A stretch of DNA of 64,000 bases from Pleodorina starrii (Eukaryota; Chlorophyta; Chlorophyceae; Chlamydomonadales; Volvocaceae), in the NCBI GenBank assembly GCA_030267565.1, contig BRXU01000012.1, positions 228,501-292,500 of the forward strand, read 5' to 3'. Of this stretch, positions 1 through 10,401 are shown in pieces. Below the pieces are notes generated by a model, which saw nothing but the letters and a program-made list of their open reading frames with translations, did no database searches and had not been told where the DNA came from. Position numbers and translations under genes: made by a program. How positions within the stretch are numbered: the stretch's first letter is position 1; every line of letters begins with the position of its first letter.

Positions 1-316
1 TAAGGGTGTCTACATCCGATTTGTGATTTGCCATCAAATGCCCATGCAAGGCATCACACCTATGTCGTTACTTGTCAGGAAATCACACTGGCCGCATCCC
101 GACCCAAACAACAAAAGAACTCGAACGCTTTCACCAACCACCAACGAACAACGAACATAACCCTAAACAACATGTGTAGCTGCCGTAACCTGTACCGCGC
201 CCTATACCGCACCCTGCACCCAGAGCCGTATACCCTGATGTGCTGTATACACACCCTGAAGTACCGTACTGTACCCTGCTGTGCCGTATATTTATACCCT
301 GCTTTGCCGTACTTAC

Positions 317-3300
317 CTGCAGGTTCTTGACGAGCACGTTTTTGTTGTGCATTCGCTTGGCGGTGAGCGCCAGTGCCACCGTCAGAGTCACCAGCAGTCC
401 CTCGGGAACCACCGCCACGATCACCGAAATGGCGAACACAAGCGCCTGGAGACGGGGGGGGCGGGGGGTTTTGTTTTTTTGTTTTTTTGGGGGGGTTTTG
501 GGTTCCAGGGTTTAAGGGTGTAGGGGTTTTAGGGGTTTTAGGGTTTTAGGGGCTGGGGTGAGGTGAGGTGACGGGGATGGGGCGGGTGAGGTGAGGCACA
601 GGCGGGCAGGCATCACCCACCCACCCACCTGAACCACTTCCATGACGCCCATGCCCAGACCCGCTGCCAGGAACACCGCTCCAATAATCATGGCGGCTGC
701 TGAGATGAAGGCGATGAAGCGGTTCAGCTGCGGGCGGGCGGGCGGGGGGGAGGAAAAGGTGTTGGGGTTGCGGGGCAGCGGGGTTACGGGGATGGGGCAA
801 CCCAAAGTTAGTGGCCGAGGGCCGTGTCATTCAGCTCAGCACAGCTCAGCGCAATGCAGTGCAGTCTGCAGTGCAGTGCTGGTGGAATACTCAACTCAGC
901 CCGTCTCAGCTCCTCTCACCTCTCGCACAATGGGCGGCTGATTGTCGCCGCGCGTCTCACCCGCTAGGCCGGCGATCTGAGGGCATTCGTGGGGGGTGTT
1001 GGTGGTGTTGGTGTTGGTGGTGTTGGTGGGGGGAAAGAGAGGGGCCCCGGTTAGTTGTCTGACGGCGGTTGGGAGTGGTGGTTGGTGGTTGGGCCGATGG
1101 GGCGCGTGTGCCAACCGCCGTACCAGCCGAGCCGCCAATGTGGCCCATGTGTTGGCGCACTGTTTCGGTCACACTCGCGCATTCACGGCCCTCAGCGCAC
1201 AGCCCTCTGCACTGCTGCACCTACTGGCTCCACCCTTTCCCCCACAACACACACCCACCCCACCCACTGATTCATATAACCCCTCGGGTTTGTGTGTGGG
1301 TGTATGGGTGTGTGTGGGGGTCTGGAGTATAACATCGTAACGCCAACACCATATCGTAACACAGGTGCGATACACACCGGCTTGCGTTCCTCCGGGTAGG
1401 TCCACTGTAAAACGGTTCGTACATATTAAACAAACGCAATGTACGACATGTCGTACCCACCTGTCCCATGACGGTGTTATCTCCGGTTCCGATCACGATG
1501 CCCCGTCCGTGACCCGACGCCACAATGGTCGAGTAGAACAGCAGGTTGGTGGCCTCGATGGCGGGAATCTGATGGATGTACGGAAATGAACGAAAGTGTA
1601 CGGCAACGAATGATGGAAGAAGGGCGAACAGATGAAGCACCCCGGGGGCCGCACATCGACACACCAGCTATGTACCTTTGCTCTGGGTCTGCCGTCGCCG
1701 CCACCCTCCTCAATGTCGCCCGCATGGTTTGTGGCGTACAGTGTGGGGCCGCGCTCACACGCCTCCGGCTCGCCTGGGGGGGGGGGGTAGAGGGCGGGGT
1801 GGGGTGGGGTGGGGTGGGATGGTGTGGGGTGGGGTGGGGTGGGATGGGGTGGGAGCGAGCGGCCGAGGGGTTGGGTCGTAGCTTGGGTGAGATCAGGGGC
1901 GGGGGCGTGAGCCGTTCGTCGTTGAGCCGTTCGTTTTCATGAGTAGTTGCCTTACCGCTTGAAGACGGGGATGGACACGGGTACCTGCGAGCAGAAGAGT
2001 ATGCTTGCTTCCGTGGGAGGAGGCGAGCCTGGTAACCGACTGCGCTATCTGCCGCGGGGCGGTGTAATGGGCAGAAGACGCAGCGGAAACCTGTCAGTAC
2101 TGACTATATGAACTCGCGAAATTGCTCTTTCCGTCGCGCTCAGCGCGACTTGCACTTCGCTCTCACTGGTACGGCCAGGCCGTACCACCAACGAACAGCC
2201 GAGAACGCTCTCGGCAAATACACAGAAAACCTTGGTTTTCTTCGTTTCACTCAGAAAACCTTCAGCCTTCTGCGCGATTCATAACCCGCTCGGCTGCACA
2301 CAGCAACACAGAGCACTAGCTCGCGCGCGCTGGGTGCAGATGTGCGTGTTTGGTTTTTCCCGGACACGTGTTGTACCGGTACTTTGCCCCCGGGGCTTTG
2401 CCGTACTGTCTCGTACACACCATTGCACACCTGTTAGGGACGAGTTGTCCACTTTGAGGTTGTACGAATCGATGACGCGGATGTCGGCCGGAACCTGGTC
2501 GCCCTCCTGTCGTACATGCATTCGTACCCGGGGGGCGATGGATGCGTGAAGGAGGGGCGGGGCGGGGTACATGCCGTCATGCGTTGTCGTCTGGACTGAA
2601 AGGTCGGCGGTGACACCGGTGGCGGTGGCACCGGTGCCCGTAGTTGTGCAGATAGATTGCGAAGCGCCCCAACCGCTCCCCAGACCCAGACTCAGTCCCC
2701 TCCACACACACACACTCCCCCACTTCCCCCCCCCCCACCTGGAACTCCACCAGATCTCCCGGCACCAGCTCCACCGCCTCCAGTACGTTGGGCGCCCCGT
2801 CCCGCACCACCTTGCACTTCTTGGGGATGAGGCTCTTGAAGCCGTTCATGATGGCCTGGGGGGGGAGGGGTCGGGGGGGTGGAGGGGTCGGGCGTCGGGA
2901 AGGGGAGGAGGAGGGATGGGGAGGAATGGTAAGGAGGAAGCGAACAGGAGGCAGTGAGGCGGAGGGTGGAAAGGTGGGAAGTAGGCAGGGGAGGGATATC
3001 GAGGGGATCAGGGAGGGGGGAGGCTGCTGCGAGAAGGGATCGATGGCGAGAAAAGGACAGCCGCTCGAAGCGTCTTCGGAGCTAACGGGCCGACGGGTGA
3101 TGGAGAAACGGTGAAATCGGTTATGGGCACAGTAATGGTGGACGATGCGACGGGAGAGGTACCATATACACAAGAGAGACATACCGGTACATGCCGCCGC
3201 AGCGAACCAACCTAACGGAGGCGACGTTGGCGATCGACTTCAACGTGTGGCGGGGGCAGGGTGGCTGTCTAAAGATTTGGATATGGAGAAATTTTTGGAA

Positions 3301-4358
3301 ATCTGAAGATAATTTTGCCATGCGGGTGTCCAGGGCCCCGAGCGAGGGCGGGAAAACGGGCGCGTCTGAACACGGGGGACGGGGCCAAGCAAGCGCGTGG
3401 GGTAAAGCAAACCAGGTTGCGCCCGTCACCGCGCCCACGCCGGTTGCACCCACCATCGCACCGTCACGCACCTGTGACTTTGCTTCCTGGAAATAGGCAA
3501 AGGTGGAGGAGATGAAGATCACCAGGATGAGCACAACTCCAAGGTACAGGTTGGAGACATCGGACTGGTCGATGCCGTACGCGATGAAGCACATCGCGCC
3601 GCCCGTGAAGAGCAGCAGACTGAAGAAATTGGTATATTGCTCCACGTATAACATCCTGTTGGTTAGTTGTTGATTGGTTCATATCGATCAGTTGGTTAAC
3701 ATTTACTAATGATGGTTTTTGGTTAGTTTTCATTTCAGCTAGCAGTTACAACACCGAAGAAGATATAACAAATTAGCTGCGTCGTTGTAGTCGCTTGGTC
3801 GATAAGGAAGGAAGTGTAGCAGGCGGTATCACGAGGTATCACGTGGGATTGGGTGTTTCATGTAGTCGGACGGCGGAGAAAAACAACTGGCCCGCCGTTT
3901 CGCGAGCATCCCAAATCCATAATGCAAGAATATTGAAGGCGAGGAATTAACACACGTGGACGAGGGAATGCCGTCGCAAAAATAGGGTAAGCCTAGTTTG
4001 CAGAGTTCTGTCGAGGGCTCAACTCGTTCGAGTCTGTCGGAGAGGCGACGAGGTGACTCAGTGACCGACTCGAGCCGGCGCTGCCGAGGACCTGCATTCA
4101 CGGACGACGGACCTACCATGCCGGCTTGACGTTCGGGGGTGTCAAGCGATTCTCGCCGTGCCTTTTCCGGCTCTCCAGAACCTGCGCCGTCGTGAGCCCC
4201 TGCTCGAAGGAGACGTTGTATTCGGCGGCGAGCTCCTCCAGGCTGAACTCATGCGCGACGATTGGCAGGTCCTTGCGTAAATTCTTCTGTTTCGTATCTC
4301 CACCAACGCCTTTCTTTCCGCCAAAGCATCCTCGGCCCCCGCTGTCTGCGTCGGCCAT
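317..4358 (-). CDS. P-type IIC (Na+/K+-ATPase type) catalytic subunit, N-terminal 370 residues, cut by window edge
   Basis: Ion-pumping ATPase of the plasma membrane. Nine phase-consistent exons: 4358-4117, 3655-3472, 2855-2739, 2506-2431, 1773-1676, 1568-1461, 976-920, 727-629, 445-317 (1,110 nt, 370 codons). The N-terminus has an LTPP motif before M1. M1/M2 lie in exon 2 ([11 protein letters not shown], then FAYFQEAKS). The actuator domain has [10 protein letters not shown] and DNSSLTG, and exon 6 has [10 protein letters not shown]3 is exon 8. M4 is exon 9, with VVPEGLL near residue 341 followed by LTAKRM and KNVLVKNLQ; this run separates the IIC pumps from SERCA and H+ pumps. The start is the ATG at 4358; an upstream in-frame ATG exists but gives no family similarity. 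The phosphorylation loop (DKTGT) would lie left of base 1. Oddity: the actuator TGES reads TGEP. Whether it moves Na+/K+ or H+/K+ cannot be told from this half. Confidence 0.9.
1797..1853. repeat. (GGGGT)n array in a pump-gene intron
   Basis: Tandem GGGGT with occasional GGGAT units, just downstream (on +) of the exon 5 acceptor of the ATPase gene. On the gene strand it reads CCCCA, forming part of the polypyrimidine region. The G-rich strand has quadruplex potential. Confidence 0.85.
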
Positions 4359-5003
4359 TTCGGAACTGCGCATGGGATGCCCGAGCGAGAAGAAAGTCAC
4401 GACGACGCGTTAGGTGGCGGAATAACTGATAGTTTGAAACTAAAGTTTCATGTAATATACAAGCAAGATGCACATCGGCCCTGCCCACCTTGTCACTCCT
4501 AGCTAGCCCTCCGCTCGTCGAGCCCGCTCTGCGCAAGAGTTCCTCGCGCTACTCCAAAACCGTTTACCAAACTGCTGACATATAAAATTCTAATCTGTAA
4601 CAGCTTAGCCACTTATGATTGATGGGTAGTGTAGTAGGATGCCCGTTGATGAGAAAAAAGGAACCTGAATCTGGAGCAGTTCGGCAAGGTAGGGTTTCTC
4701 TAATCCACTTGATCTAGAGAGTTCAAGCAAGGATGGGGCCCACTACCTGTAATAAATTATTGACGGGCCGGTCATTTTGCCGTGACGGTCACACTGCGGT
4801 TGCGGTCCGTGGACCAACGGTAACCCCGCTGCTGGTTATCTAAACAGTCTGACCCCGAATTCTGTAAACACCGACCGGACACAATAGCTGAAGTGGAAAC
4901 TCTTAATTTACGATATCAATATACTTATACTTAAGACTGTGTTGCGGTCATTCATCTGTCTCACTCGAAACTGTCTGGAGCGAATTAGGTCTTTGTAGGG
5001 ACA
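4359..5003. promoter_or_regulatory. Divergent intergenic region between the pump gene and the beta-like gene
   Basis: These 645 bases separate two divergent start codons and presumably hold both promoters. The sequence is noticeably more AT-rich than the flanking exons, with a TATA-like stretch near 4579-4589 (atataaaattc) and another AT-rich stretch near 4905-4935. No defined operator can be named from sequence alone. No gene is seen here. Confidence 0.45.
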
Positions 5004-6357
5004 ATGCCGGGCGTAGATGGAGCGCAATCAGGACAAGTGGTAAGCTAAAAAAATATGTCGTGAGCTGTGCTGGCGCTCCTTGCCGAATTTGATGTTTAAG
5101 GTCCTGACCTTGCGGGGCTGACCTTGCCATGGAGAACGCGCTCAGGCGCTTACCTTGGAGGACAAGGCAAAGAAGCGGCGTCTTAAAATCGTTGTGTTTG
5201 AGACAAGTAAGTTAGCGATGCTGCAACGGGAAGCTCCCCGGTCCACCGACGAGAGGAGGGCCGCCAAGGGTGCACGCCGGCACACAGCGGGTTACTTGTC
5301 AGCCGGCGGGTCACCGGCCATCGCTCCCTCCAAATGCGCTCGCTACCTCCAGAGCGCTTCCCGTCTTTCCATGTCCACGCACATATGCACATCATGGATG
5401 CAGATATTCAGCGCGCCGCTTGCTAGGCGGCCGTAATGACACCTGTCCGTTTATCGCGGGGCTGAGCCTACGCAGCAGGCCGCATCCCTCTTCACACACA
5501 CAGTCACACACCACCCACACACAATCACACCCCCCACACACACAGCACACACACATCGGGTTTTGCCCTTTGCGGTCATCGGCGCCACCAAAGACCAAAC
5601 GCTCCGATTATGTCATCACGCGCGAATCACCCACAAACGCCGCCGCGAGGGCCGGTTTTTTTCCAGTCGCTGCAGTGTTTATGGCTTATAGGCCGAAGGG
5701 CCCCCTCCCGCAGAGGCCCCCGCAGAGGCCCTCCGCCACCGCCTCCGCGGCCTCCATTACCGCAGGAGCACACGCTGTGGCGCTGCTCCCTCCTTCCCTC
5801 CCTCCCTCCCTCCCTCGCTTGCCGCGGCTCGATCGCTGCGGCTCGTCTTTCTTTATCCGCCCGCCCTCCCGGAGCGGTTAGGATAGATTGATTCTTGATA
5901 CCCTCCCTTCTGATCAGCACACGTCGTGTCGTGTTTCACACACCGATCGCCCGCTTTGCCCCCGCCCCCAACCCCGCCCCCAACCCCGACACCCAACCCG
6001 CGTACTGCATTCGGGCGCAGTCGGGCTGATCGCCTACCTGCTGGTGCTCTACGCCTTCTACGCCGGCTTCTTCACAGCGCTGTTGATGATCGCGTTGAGC
6101 GTCCGGAAAAATAACTACTTGCGTAAGTTCGTATTGCACGCAGCCGACCCATGGGTCATCCGTTGCGCCCCCGGACGGGTGCGCGGCATTGTGGTGGTGT
6201 CAGGGGTCATTGGTGAGCCGTACCTGTCGCACTGTCGTCCACCGCTGATTCCATCGCAGATCTAAACGCAAAGCTGACGGGCCACGTCATCCCGAATGAT
6301 TACTACACGACCCCCTGGATCTGGCTCCGAGACCATTTGGCGCACTCGTCCGGCTGA
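5004..6357 (+). CDS. 98-residue single-pass membrane protein resembling the N-terminus and membrane span of a Na+/K+-ATPase beta subunit
   Basis: Four exons: 5004-5039, 5146-5206, 6021-6122, 6260-6357 (297 nt, in phase throughout). Donors are GTAAGC, GTAAGT and GTAAGT; acceptors are CTCAG, CGCAG and CGCAG. Start ATG 5004, stop TGA 6355-6357. The order is a short N-terminus, a basic patch KAKKRRLK at residues 19-26, then one hydrophobic segment (about 34-59) rich in Tyr/Phe (LLVLYAFYAGFFTALLM), then a 39-residue tail. Beta subunits start the same way: basic cytoplasmic end, then a Tyr/Phe-rich single span. The roughly 230-residue ectodomain and its disulfides are absent. It is divergent from, and 645 bases away from, the pump gene, which supports an accessory role. 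The exon structure is well supported; the beta relationship is inference. It could equally be an unrelated small membrane protein. Confidence 0.7.
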
Positions 6358-7872
6358 TTCGCTGATTTGTGGGGGCGAGGGCGCCGGATCAACGTCTGCA
6401 GTGCACACCAGGGGTGGACAAACCTGCTGGCGCGCCGGCTGTGCCTTGCCTATCGAGGTTCCGGAGCCGCGCCATTTGCGACTTTGCGACAGGCCCCACC
6501 GCGGCTCAGATCTGCACTGGCGTCTGACTGACGGTTGTTGGCGGATACGGCAGAGCGCAGAGGCCGAGCGACGGGCATGACTTCGGGAAGAATCGTGCAA
6601 TGGTGGATCGTCGAGCGGCAGAAGGCGTACTGGTGGATGTATGCACGGCTGATGTACGGCGGAAGTACGGCGTAGGGTTGGGTTGGACGTTGGAAGGGTG
6701 GTGCGTGCGTTTCGGCGAAAACCGAGGAACCGACACGGGGGTTGTGTGTGCGGTGAGACCCACGGGTCGCGGGCGCTGATGGAGTGGGTTGGGCGGCGGC
6801 GGCCGCTTAAGCAACGCAACTTTTGGGAACTGACGGCAGTGTTGTGTGAATACGTTGTGTTTCGGGGACTGGAATGACGTGATGCATTTTGTGATGTCGC
6901 CGTCGTGGCGCTAGGCCGCAGTAAGCAAGCAGAGGAGTAACAAGTCGGAGTACCAGCCCTTCCGCCGTTCGGCTATGCTGACGGATGACGAACAGGCGAA
7001 GAGGCGAAGGAAAGGAGCAGGCGGGGGGCTGAGGCGCGTTGTTGTTCCTCTTGCGGAAAGTCAATGATTCATGTCGTGTAACGGGTATGCTGAGAGCGAC
7101 TCCGGCCCCCAGCACCGGTCTGTGCTGCTCCCTCCCTGGACCTGTAATCTCCTGGCTCTGCCGAGGCTGACGTGCTGACCGACTGGGCTTTGAGATAAGA
7201 GGGCAAGCGAAAGGGGAAGCGGGGACCGGCTGCGCTCCGCTGCATCCAAGTCAACAAGCCGGGAATGTGGAGGAGGAGGACGGTAAGCACGTGCACGTGC
7301 ACGTGCAGCTTCTGCGGACTACACGTGGACGTGGAGCTTCTCCGGGAAGTGGGGTGAGGATGAAGTGGGGAGAGGGCGCGCAGGAGGCAGGACGAAGCCA
7401 ATCGACGAGTTGCTGTTGTAAGTTTCGCCTCGCGCAGTGCGTTAGGGAAAGGTACCTTGGCAAAAGGTGCGTTTATTAAAATATCGCGCGCCAGGTCGGA
7501 TGAGCGGACCTTTCTACATGCTGACCTTTACACCGTCGGGTGCGCGCCAGTGTGCTGTGCTGTTGCCCGTTTGTCAACTGCTGGTCGTAAGATAGGACCG
7601 CACGGTACGGCCTAATTCGCACCGCGCGCGGCATGGGCCCTTGGATTGCTTTTCAAATGCAAGGTTCAAGTCTGCCCTGAATTGCGTTCAACATTCGTCA
7701 GCTGCAAAGGGGTAAAAGTGAGCTTGATCTGTACCGTAACGCCGAAATCTGAAAAGCTACTCATCGTGCAATAATTATTGGAGCAGAGCAACAATTGACC
7801 AGCAAACATCGGTGTTGTTTAGCTACGATTTGCGGGCGAAATTGCAGCTTACGGTGCTGTATTTGCGTGAGA
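6358..7872. other. Intergenic region, no gene seen
   Basis: About 1.5 kb between the beta-like gene and the SYLF gene. It presumably contains the 3' UTR of the first and the promoter and 5' UTR of the second. Open frames here are short, lack family resemblance and have no convincing splice partners. Confidence 0.5.
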
Positions 7873-10401
7873 TGGCCGAAGCCAGAACCGAGGCTCCTAG
7901 CGGGCCGGCCAACGCATCCGCAAATCGCGCATCACACGTTTATGAGTTCAAGGAGACCGCAGAAGACGCGGTGAAGCAGCAGTTGTAAGCGTTCCGCTTC
8001 GTTTCGTCCCGCACTTGGTAGTTTGGCTATTGGCTCGACGATTAAAATTCGTCCCGCCTGTGCCAGGGCCAAGGACGCGGAATGGGCAGCGGAGCTAATT
8101 ACCAAGCTTATTACAGCAGGCGGCGATGACGCCATGAAGCCTGGCATCGTGAACGCTTGCGAGGTGCGTGCGTTGGAACTGGCTTCTCACGGGCGTCGCT
8201 GCCCTGCACGACCAGCAACGCGATAACTTAATACAGCAGGAAGCAAAGAACCATACATTTTTATGTGCGTAATGTTGATTCGCGTCATTTCCATCCCCGC
8301 GCCCATAGTTTTCAAATCTCCGACTGACCAAAGCAGCGCCGAGAGAAGCCCCCCGACCTGTGTGCAACCCCACGCCCCGAACATGCCCCAAAACACACAA
8401 CAAACACACAAACACGCGCACGACTTCCCCCACAAACTCCCCCTTGCTGCTCCCCACAGGGCCTCGCATTCGTCCACGTGGCCAAGGGCGGGCTGGGCAT
8501 AACCCTCGCCCGTGGGTCCGGATTCGTCATCCGCAAACTTGACCAGGCAGGTTTGCAACAGTCGTACGGCCGTACGGCAGGGGATACGCTAGCGACTGCT
8601 GTAGCGCTGCTGGCACCGTGTACGAAACAGGCTTCCCCTCGATCCGAGATGAAACCGAGATGGCGAGTAGATAGGCCCGGTGCGCGTGTCTTGGGTCCTT
8701 GGTGCCTGGCGCCCCTCCTGCGAGGAACAACAACGGTGAACAGTGGCTGAAACGACTGATCGGAACCGCTCCGGAACCGCTCCGGAACCGCTGCATGCCC
8801 CCCAACAGGACCGCTTCGGCAACTCGCGCTGGTCGGCCCCCGTGTTCTTCACCGTGTCGCAGATCGGCTTCGGCGTCGCTCTGGGGTATCAATCGGTGGG
8901 TCGGTTGGGTTGGGTTGGCTTGGTTTTGGTTGGGTTGCACGGGGGTCAGTTTTGGGATTAATGCAGGATCACGTGCCCTCAACAACAGACGACTACAACA
9001 ACAGGTTCCCTCACGGATTAGATTTCACTCTGTACTCTGTAAGGGTGAAGCCGTACCCATTACCCCCGCGAAGAGGCGACCTTTTTCTCTGCCCCCGGGT
9101 TTAACGCAGGACCCCTAACGCCCTTAGCTCCCTGCGGCTCGGCTAACAGCGCAGTGAAGAGACCCTCGTGGCATTTCCTCAAATAAAGCAGCGCCTGCTC
9201 GTCCTCAACGCAACGTTTCCTTTTGATCTCTTTGTTATAATTATTCTGCCCTGTGGCCCCTGGCGACTTGTGGACTTCGCACAGGTGGATTCCGTACTGG
9301 CGCTCATGTCGTACAGCTCCATCGAGCGGTTCACGCACGACAAGGCGGTTGTGGGCACCGACCTGGGGTTGGTAACCACGGAGGGCGCCACCAGCGGCGT
9401 GCCGGCGGGTACCTTTGGTCGTACCAGCCACATGGACGTGCAGGTGGGGTTACGAAGGCCGTTGGCGGATAGTTGGTTAGTGGCATGGAACCATTTTGTT
9501 GCTGGCGGTTGGAAGTTGGGACTCGTTTGAAGCGTCATTATTCAGCCTCAGGGCGGGGCGCCCCATGGCCTTTGCGCCGCAGGCCGCCACCGCACCAGAC
9601 ACCACACGCGTGCCGCTGACTGACTGACTGACTGACGTGCCACTTTAACCCTTACCCTGTCCGGCACGGACGTTTGCACTGCCGTACTGCACGGCAACTA
9701 ACCCAGGCTGACAACACCAACGCCGTATTTGCGTACAGCTCCTCCGCGGGGCTGCTGTTCAACCTCTCTGTCAATGGTGAGTGAGTACGGAACCCACAGG
9801 GGCGCGAGGGGCCACATGGGGCAGTGGTTTCGGAGGCTGTAGCAGTGTTTTGCGGACAGCAGCAGCAGCAGGTTCGATCATTGCAGTGCGTTGGCACGGG
9901 TAGTAGCAGTAGTTTGTTCGTGTGGACAAAAGGACATGGCCGCTGCTTGTGGCACACCTTTCGTCCCCATGGAAGACGCATACGGTTCACCCGTCATGCG
10001 GCAAATTCTCAGCAGCACCTCACCCTCATGAAATCCCAGCACCCCTCCGCTGCGGTATCTTCTTCCTTACCCCTCATGTAACCCACCGTTCGCAGCCCCT
10101 CCTTCCCACAACTGGCGCCAACATCTTCTTGCCCATACACACGCCCGTCTCCCCCCCCGCCTTCCCTCTCGCTCGCCCATTATTATCCCGGTACTGTACG
10201 TGCGGCCTGTCCCTATTTTGCTGCCGTACCGCCGTACTACTGGGCTCAGGCACCCAGACGTGGCCAAACCGGGACCTCAACCGCATGCTGTACGGAGACA
10301 CGCCGCTGGAGGACGTACTGCACGGCCGTACGGCAACCTTCCAGGAGATGCTGCCGCTGTACCGCAAGATTGCGGACACGGGCAGGGCCGCGGTCGCCTA
10401 G
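7873..10401 (+). CDS. SYLF-domain (Ysc84/SH3YL1-type) lipid-binding protein, complete, 254 residues
   Basis: SYLF domains bind phosphoinositide membranes and, in Ysc84/Lsb3, actin. Seven exons: 7873-7985, 8067-8163, 8460-8546, 8809-8895, 9285-9443, 9707-9776, 10250-10401 (765 nt). Start is the ATG in agATGGCC; stop is TAG at 10399. The domain fills nearly the whole protein: a helical start (TAEDAVKQQL, AKDAEWAAELITKL), the family core GLAFVHVAKGGLGITLARGSG from about residue 71, then WSAPVFFTVSQIGFGVALGYQ, FTHDKAVVGTDLGLV, AVFAYSSSAGLLFNLSVNG, and the closing LNRMLYGDTPLEDVLHG. No SH3 or FYVE domain is attached, so it is a stand-alone SYLF protein. Intron 3 appears to use a GC donor (CAG|GCAGGT); using the nearby GT would break the frame. 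Intron 6 holds a copy of the dispersed GATACCGCAGCGGAGG repeat. Confidence 0.88.

Follow-up and report, generated by a model that had tools for sequence, protein, structure and literature searches.

A type IIC P-ATPase and a membrane protein of 98 residues are encoded head to head in the green alga Pleodorina starrii, which raises the question of whether the small protein is a partner of the pump. Animal IIC pumps need a beta subunit, and a sequence-only reading of this locus had proposed the small ("mini") protein as a minimal, perhaps ancestral or reduced, beta. We analyzed a window of 64,000 nucleotides corresponding to C12:228501-292500, where C12 is the contig used for coordinates in an assembly of 136 Mb and 95 contigs; positions without a prefix are those of the window. 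The locus probably holds a self-contained IIC pump and a separate, real mini membrane protein that have a divergent promoter region in common.

Architecture of the gene pair and its second copy

The pump in the window (pump A) has 28 exons and 1215 residues in our splice model and is read from the minus strand. Exon 1 (4117–4358) opens with a start codon at 4358 that is kept in a second copy of the gene (copy B, below), and is followed by exons 2 (3472–3655), 3 (2739–2855), 4 (2431–2506), 5 (1676–1773), 6 (1461–1568), 7 (920–976), 8 (629–727), and 9 (317–445). Exon 5 completes the motif TGEP, which is TGES in copy B, and exon 9 contains PEGLL and ends at 317, exactly where the sequence-only reading had placed it. 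Exons 10–28 lie on the same strand to the left of the window (C12:228455-218577). The database protein of pump A (P0006, PLESTB_000939400) is 859 residues long, starts just before exon 10, and is missing the first nine exons; a sequence check placed a stretch of it inside pump A. At the exon 25/26 junction, P0006 has an arginine versus a glutamine in the 28-exon model. Both pumps have a GC-AG intron 25 (C12:219722 / 219439 in A, C12:177339 / 177609 in B).

The pump is of an already known kind. Its assignment to class IIC holds: paralogue B (P0001) scores 1014.5 bits against TIGR01106 (NCBIfam), versus a cut-off of 946.1, and pump A is assigned through its 93% identity to B. The motifs DKTGTLT, PEGLL, and TGDGVNDAP are found in both pumps.

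The mini gene is read from the plus strand in four exons, all kept in copy B: exon 1 (5004–5039), exon 2 with a basic segment (5146–5206), exon 3 with the transmembrane span (6021–6122), and exon 4 with the stop codon (6260–6357). It is complete, as had been claimed, with GT-AG introns and 98 codons plus stop. The region between the two start codons (4359–5003, no strand assigned) measures 645 bases, confirming the divergent pair, and 655 bases in copy B. A 24-base block on the plus strand (4958–4981), shortly before the mini ATG, is conserved between A and B; this top-scoring local alignment between the two intergenic regions, the sole one considered, reaches 36, whereas none of 100 shuffles exceeded 29. 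TGTAA is an algal polyadenylation signal, and a possible copy lies on the plus strand at 7077–7081, 720 bases past the mini stop (796 in copy B), although the signal is weak at a motif rate of 0.75 per kb.

The mini protein was rightly described as having a basic end and no ectodomain. Lysines and arginines within 15 residues of its single hydrophobic stretch number six to the left and three to the right in mini A, and four and three in mini B; about 30 residues follow the span, and neither copy contains a cysteine. The protein most likely spans the membrane a single time, leaving its basic end on the cytoplasmic side and exposing some 30 residues on the outer side.

A search of the mini protein against the whole P. 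starrii assembly returned five exon matches, three at its own locus and two at C12:159078-159616 on the opposite strand. BLAST revealed an inverted duplication in which C12:218569-237978, overlapping positions 1–9478 of the window, matches C12:155714-178849. The duplicated block contains the pump, the mini gene, and a third, Ysc84-like gene on the plus strand, whose approximate extent from conserved segments is 8052–9478 and whose successive weak matches to PF04366 (E 0.03 in frame 9147–9530, E 0.015 in 9632–9784) fall below the curated cut-off. The two blocks are separated by about 40 kb, and the mini start codons are 73 kb apart. Pump B has 28 exons and 1214 residues, is identical to the public protein P0001, and stands head to head with a 94-residue mini B across the 655-base gap. 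Intron 18 of pump B (C12:168983-175035) spans about 6 kb versus about 0.7 kb in A, probably owing to a later insertion. Elsewhere in the assembly, contigs C56, C65, C66, C68, C69, and C86 give P-type ATPase matches in uninterrupted frames of 658–829 codons, several with identical scores, and are probably bacterial.

A FastTree phylogeny of 17 pumps groups A with B as a sister pair (support 1.000), beside the pumps of Volvox africanus and V. carteri, and the duplication is therefore later than the split from Volvox; the branch of A is longer (0.061 versus 0.017). Because a single segmental duplication carried the third gene along as well, the pump–mini linkage seen twice counts as one event, and linkage alone is no argument for a joint function. 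Head-to-head neighbors are common in compact genomes. We regard it as an even prospect that the mini protein has its function at another place in the cell and is linked to the pump only by a common promoter region, a view favored by the single duplication that kept the Ysc84-like gene too and by the sister position of the two pumps after the Volvox split, but opposed by the near-constant spacing in the two copies and by a weak beta-like character of the span.

The second copy also bears on whether the mini gene is real. Mini A and B are identical at 60 of 94 aligned residues and retain all four exons together with their phases, splice sites, and reading frame. Apart from a shorter end in B, no gap interrupts the exon alignment, and the run YAGFFTALLMIALSVRK in the span is unchanged. 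Intron lengths are 106/814/137 in A versus 101/492/338 in B. The mini gene has a dN/dS of 0.33 (dN 0.24, dS 0.74) and the pump of 0.19 (dN 0.04, dS 0.21); in mini exon 4 alone the ratio is 0.77, so constraint there is weak. Neutral simulations yielded as few amino-acid-changing differences in 0, 0, 3, and 11 of 1000 runs at transition biases of 1, 2, 4, and 8, respectively, and 86–90% of the neutrally simulated mini copies acquired a stop codon. These comparisons indicate that the mini gene is under purifying selection, and we thus take it to be real. There is next to no chance that the four exons are a fortuitous reading of non-coding DNA, an idea to which the missing entry among public proteins and the lack of a detected homologue outside this genome lend some color, but which the conserved copy, judged from its exons, phases, splice sites, and frame kept beside differing intron lengths, practically refutes.

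The mini dS is more than three times that of the pump, possibly because the pump underwent gene conversion. The proportion of synonymous differences (pS) falls from 0.88 and 0.70 in mini exons 1 and 2 to 0.33 and 0.31 in exons 3 and 4 and 0.185 in the pump, which hints at uneven gene conversion.

The M7-M8 domain of the pump

The animal beta subunit docks at the pump between M7 and M8. In the P. starrii pump, this stretch is 213 residues long (MNDYGY to SAYF) and contains eight cysteines. Among the best 120 of 7893 scored homologues, a selection that biases the set to green algae, 107 have the complete domain (159–248 residues), three have a partial or weak one, and ten have none. The latter comprise five overlong models of 1862–2060 residues, of which four carry the name of a mammal or fish sodium pump and one has no name, and five shorter proteins of 748–1027 residues. 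None of the 107 complete loops from these best 120 lacks any of the eight cysteines, which fall among the invariant columns of an alignment of 65 sequences chosen from the 120. The motifs DPFxEF, GFRG, and YWW-like recur in the loops of the same 107 homologues.

The AlphaFold model of P0006 has block-mean pLDDT values of 78–96 over residues 551–740, where the listed elements account for 52 helix and 18 strand residues and the rest is loop. A profile of the domain hit nothing in the PDB up to E 10, and neither Pfam nor NCBIfam yielded a match to it. With a Foldseek query that covered more than the domain alone, every one of the best 50 of 548 matches was a pump chain of the Na,K or H,K type. 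The beta ectodomain has a fold unlike this loop-rich, strand-poor model. We rejected the domain as a beta homologue, given the missing PDB, Pfam, and NCBIfam matches and a model that is mostly loop with few strands. The eight-cysteine domain may deserve a family of its own.

The insert is present in the pumps of Volvox, Gonium, Chlamydomonas, and Pleodorina, all freshwater or soil algae. This spread is wider than stated in the accessible part of PMC7911474, with which we disagree on this point. There, the algal M7-M8 insert was put forward as a beta equivalent with 'high similarity' to beta, a similarity that our profile search did not reproduce. In its accessible text, PMC3355532 deals with the P2C pumps of C. 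reinhardtii and O. tauri and regards P-type ATPases of plants as single-subunit enzymes, and a term search of that text found no mention of the insert; the examined passages of PMC10654040 and PMC12066774 are likewise silent on it.

A sequence scan found the SYGQ motif in neither pump A nor pump B. According to the accessible passages of PMC9609216, SYGQ is the assembly motif of IIC pumps with an animal-type beta and, among fungi and protists, is confined to choanoflagellates.

Sequence and model together show that a cysteine-rich extracellular domain is built into the catalytic chain itself, between M7 and M8. This domain would cap and stabilize the pump or assist its folding, presumably held by disulfide bonds, and a pump so equipped would therefore need no beta ectodomain.

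Weak resemblance of the mini protein to beta subunits

A further question is whether the mini span is related to that of beta. The sequence-only reading had called the span typical of beta; database searches did not bear this out, although a weak in-register resemblance did appear in a small local test. Pfam yielded no family for mini A up to E 10 or for mini B up to E 1, PF00287 included, with the proviso that HMMER filters drop most matches above E ~0.1. In the PDB, phmmer and profile searches with the mini proteins found only unrelated proteins, such as Rab GTPases and MalG, and no beta chain up to E 10. In hhalign comparisons, the probability of a relation was 13.5% for a three-beta profile and 5.2% for human beta-1.

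In the local test, mini B aligned without gaps to beta-1 residues 21–58 (score 51, shuffle p 0.004), and mini A scored 35 (shuffle p 0.11). Residues Y43, A47, G48, F50, and L58 of the mini protein match beta-1 at equal spacing. Under the three-beta profile, mini B scored 10.3 bits, mini A 6.2 bits, and the signal anchor of a bacterial hydrolase (L020) 1.3 bits; none of 709 natural helix windows from the listed pumps, which are helices of multi-pass pumps and not single-pass anchors, reached the score of either mini protein. Shuffled sequences reached the mini A score in 47 and 73 of 1000 cases and the mini B score in 4 and 9 of 1000. In the reverse direction, under a mini profile, the betas scored 6.8, 6.4, and 3.8 bits, which 5, 8, and 39 of the 709 windows, respectively, equaled or exceeded, versus 19.7 bits for the bacterial anchor; this anchor had come out of a search that used the mini proteins as queries and is therefore a selected case. 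Its likeness illustrates that a span of this kind also turns up in unrelated proteins.

Relatives of the mini protein were sought widely. A word-based search of ~5.8 billion proteins, many green algae among them, which required three shared 5-residue words, found no homologue of mini A; with a wider length range, mini B gave four candidates with common words, none at E 1 or better. The two P. starrii mini genes were also not found in the protein database, so the gene appears unannotated, and the absence of relatives elsewhere may reflect the same annotation gap. In viral contigs, 32 stretches matched a search pattern and none was confirmed, and of 108 matching stretches in prokaryote genomes, one was confirmed (L020). 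The latter was rejected as a relative; it lies on a bacterial contig and not in algal DNA, in a frame that to judge from its sequence encodes a hydrolase with a signal anchor. The published papers searched, mostly open ones and with other terms, yielded nothing on such a protein next to an algal pump. So far, the mini protein is lineage-restricted. A PF00287 scan of the P. starrii genome found nothing and was also silent in all 14 control genomes, and is therefore weak evidence that no beta exists.

The mini protein may serve the pump as an accessory helix packed against it, a reasonable possibility though short of an even one, and true beta ancestry within that is improbable. A functional version seems rather unlikely; in it, the ectodomain is provided in cis, while a beta-like transmembrane helix near M7/M10 comes in trans from the mini protein and tunes or stabilizes the pump. 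Such an arrangement would not require common descent with the animal beta. Adjacency with near-constant spacing in both copies, beta-profile scores above those of all 709 windows and the bacterial anchor, the part of the span unchanged between A and B, and the position of the pump ectodomain in the M7-M8 loop are all consistent with it. The shuffles that match mini A and its p of 0.11 against beta-1 speak against it, as do decoys drawn from multi-pass helices, the bacterial anchor that outscores every beta under the mini profile, and the many other green algae that have such a pump and in which no mini protein was found. We consider quite unlikely a split beta, with the ectodomain residing in the M7-M8 loop and a separate protein of 94–98 residues, encoded head to head with the pump, giving the beta-like helix and cytoplasmic tail.

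The beta reading of the mini protein is not established, and the proposal of an ancestral or reduced beta subunit finds no support in the PF00287 and PDB searches, in the hhalign probabilities, in the search for homologues elsewhere, or in a linkage that traces to one duplication. A true beta that lost its ectodomain or never had one is disfavored and very unlikely: the five in-register residues and the 10.3 bits of mini B argue for it, but an ancestral subunit would be expected in other algae, where no homologue was found, and, beyond the Pfam, PDB, and hhalign results, SYGQ is missing from both pumps.

These explanations overlap, since the probable one, a self-contained pump and a separate mini protein, includes the chance neighbor as well as the accessory helix as sub-cases. 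Against this probable reading, a short gene adjacent to the pump at a spacing of 645/655 bases, with a beta-like span in B, has the look of a possible partner, the PF00287 genome scan is weak, and the absence of the mini protein elsewhere could be an annotation gap.

Comparison with known pump systems

The eight-cysteine M7-M8 domain offers a testable explanation of how algae run IIC pumps in the absence of an animal beta. Should the mini protein bind the pump, the two halves of beta would have arisen separately; if it does not, the locus cautions that a beta-like span and a head-to-head order are insufficient grounds for a partnership.

Pumps A and B share 76–78% identity with their counterparts in C. 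reinhardtii and C. incerta and resemble the green-algal P2C ATPases CrNAK1 and OtNAK1 in their eight-cysteine M7-M8 domain; unlike those, the P. starrii pump is duplicated, with copy A on a longer branch. The bacterial signal-anchored alpha/beta hydrolase has the string VLYAFYAGF in common with mini A, but is an unrelated protein of 299 residues whose function is read from its sequence. FXYD/gamma, phospholamban, and sarcolipin are described in the examined part of PMC10654040 as small one-helix proteins on P2 pumps, and the mini protein is likewise small with one helix; it differs in that neither A nor B has a Pfam match, PF02038 included, or an FXYD motif. With the animal Na,K- and H,K-ATPase beta (PF00287), it has in common one span, a basic side that is probably inside, and a weak in-register pattern, and it differs in having neither the glycosylated, disulfide-bonded ectodomain of beta nor a significant sequence or profile match.
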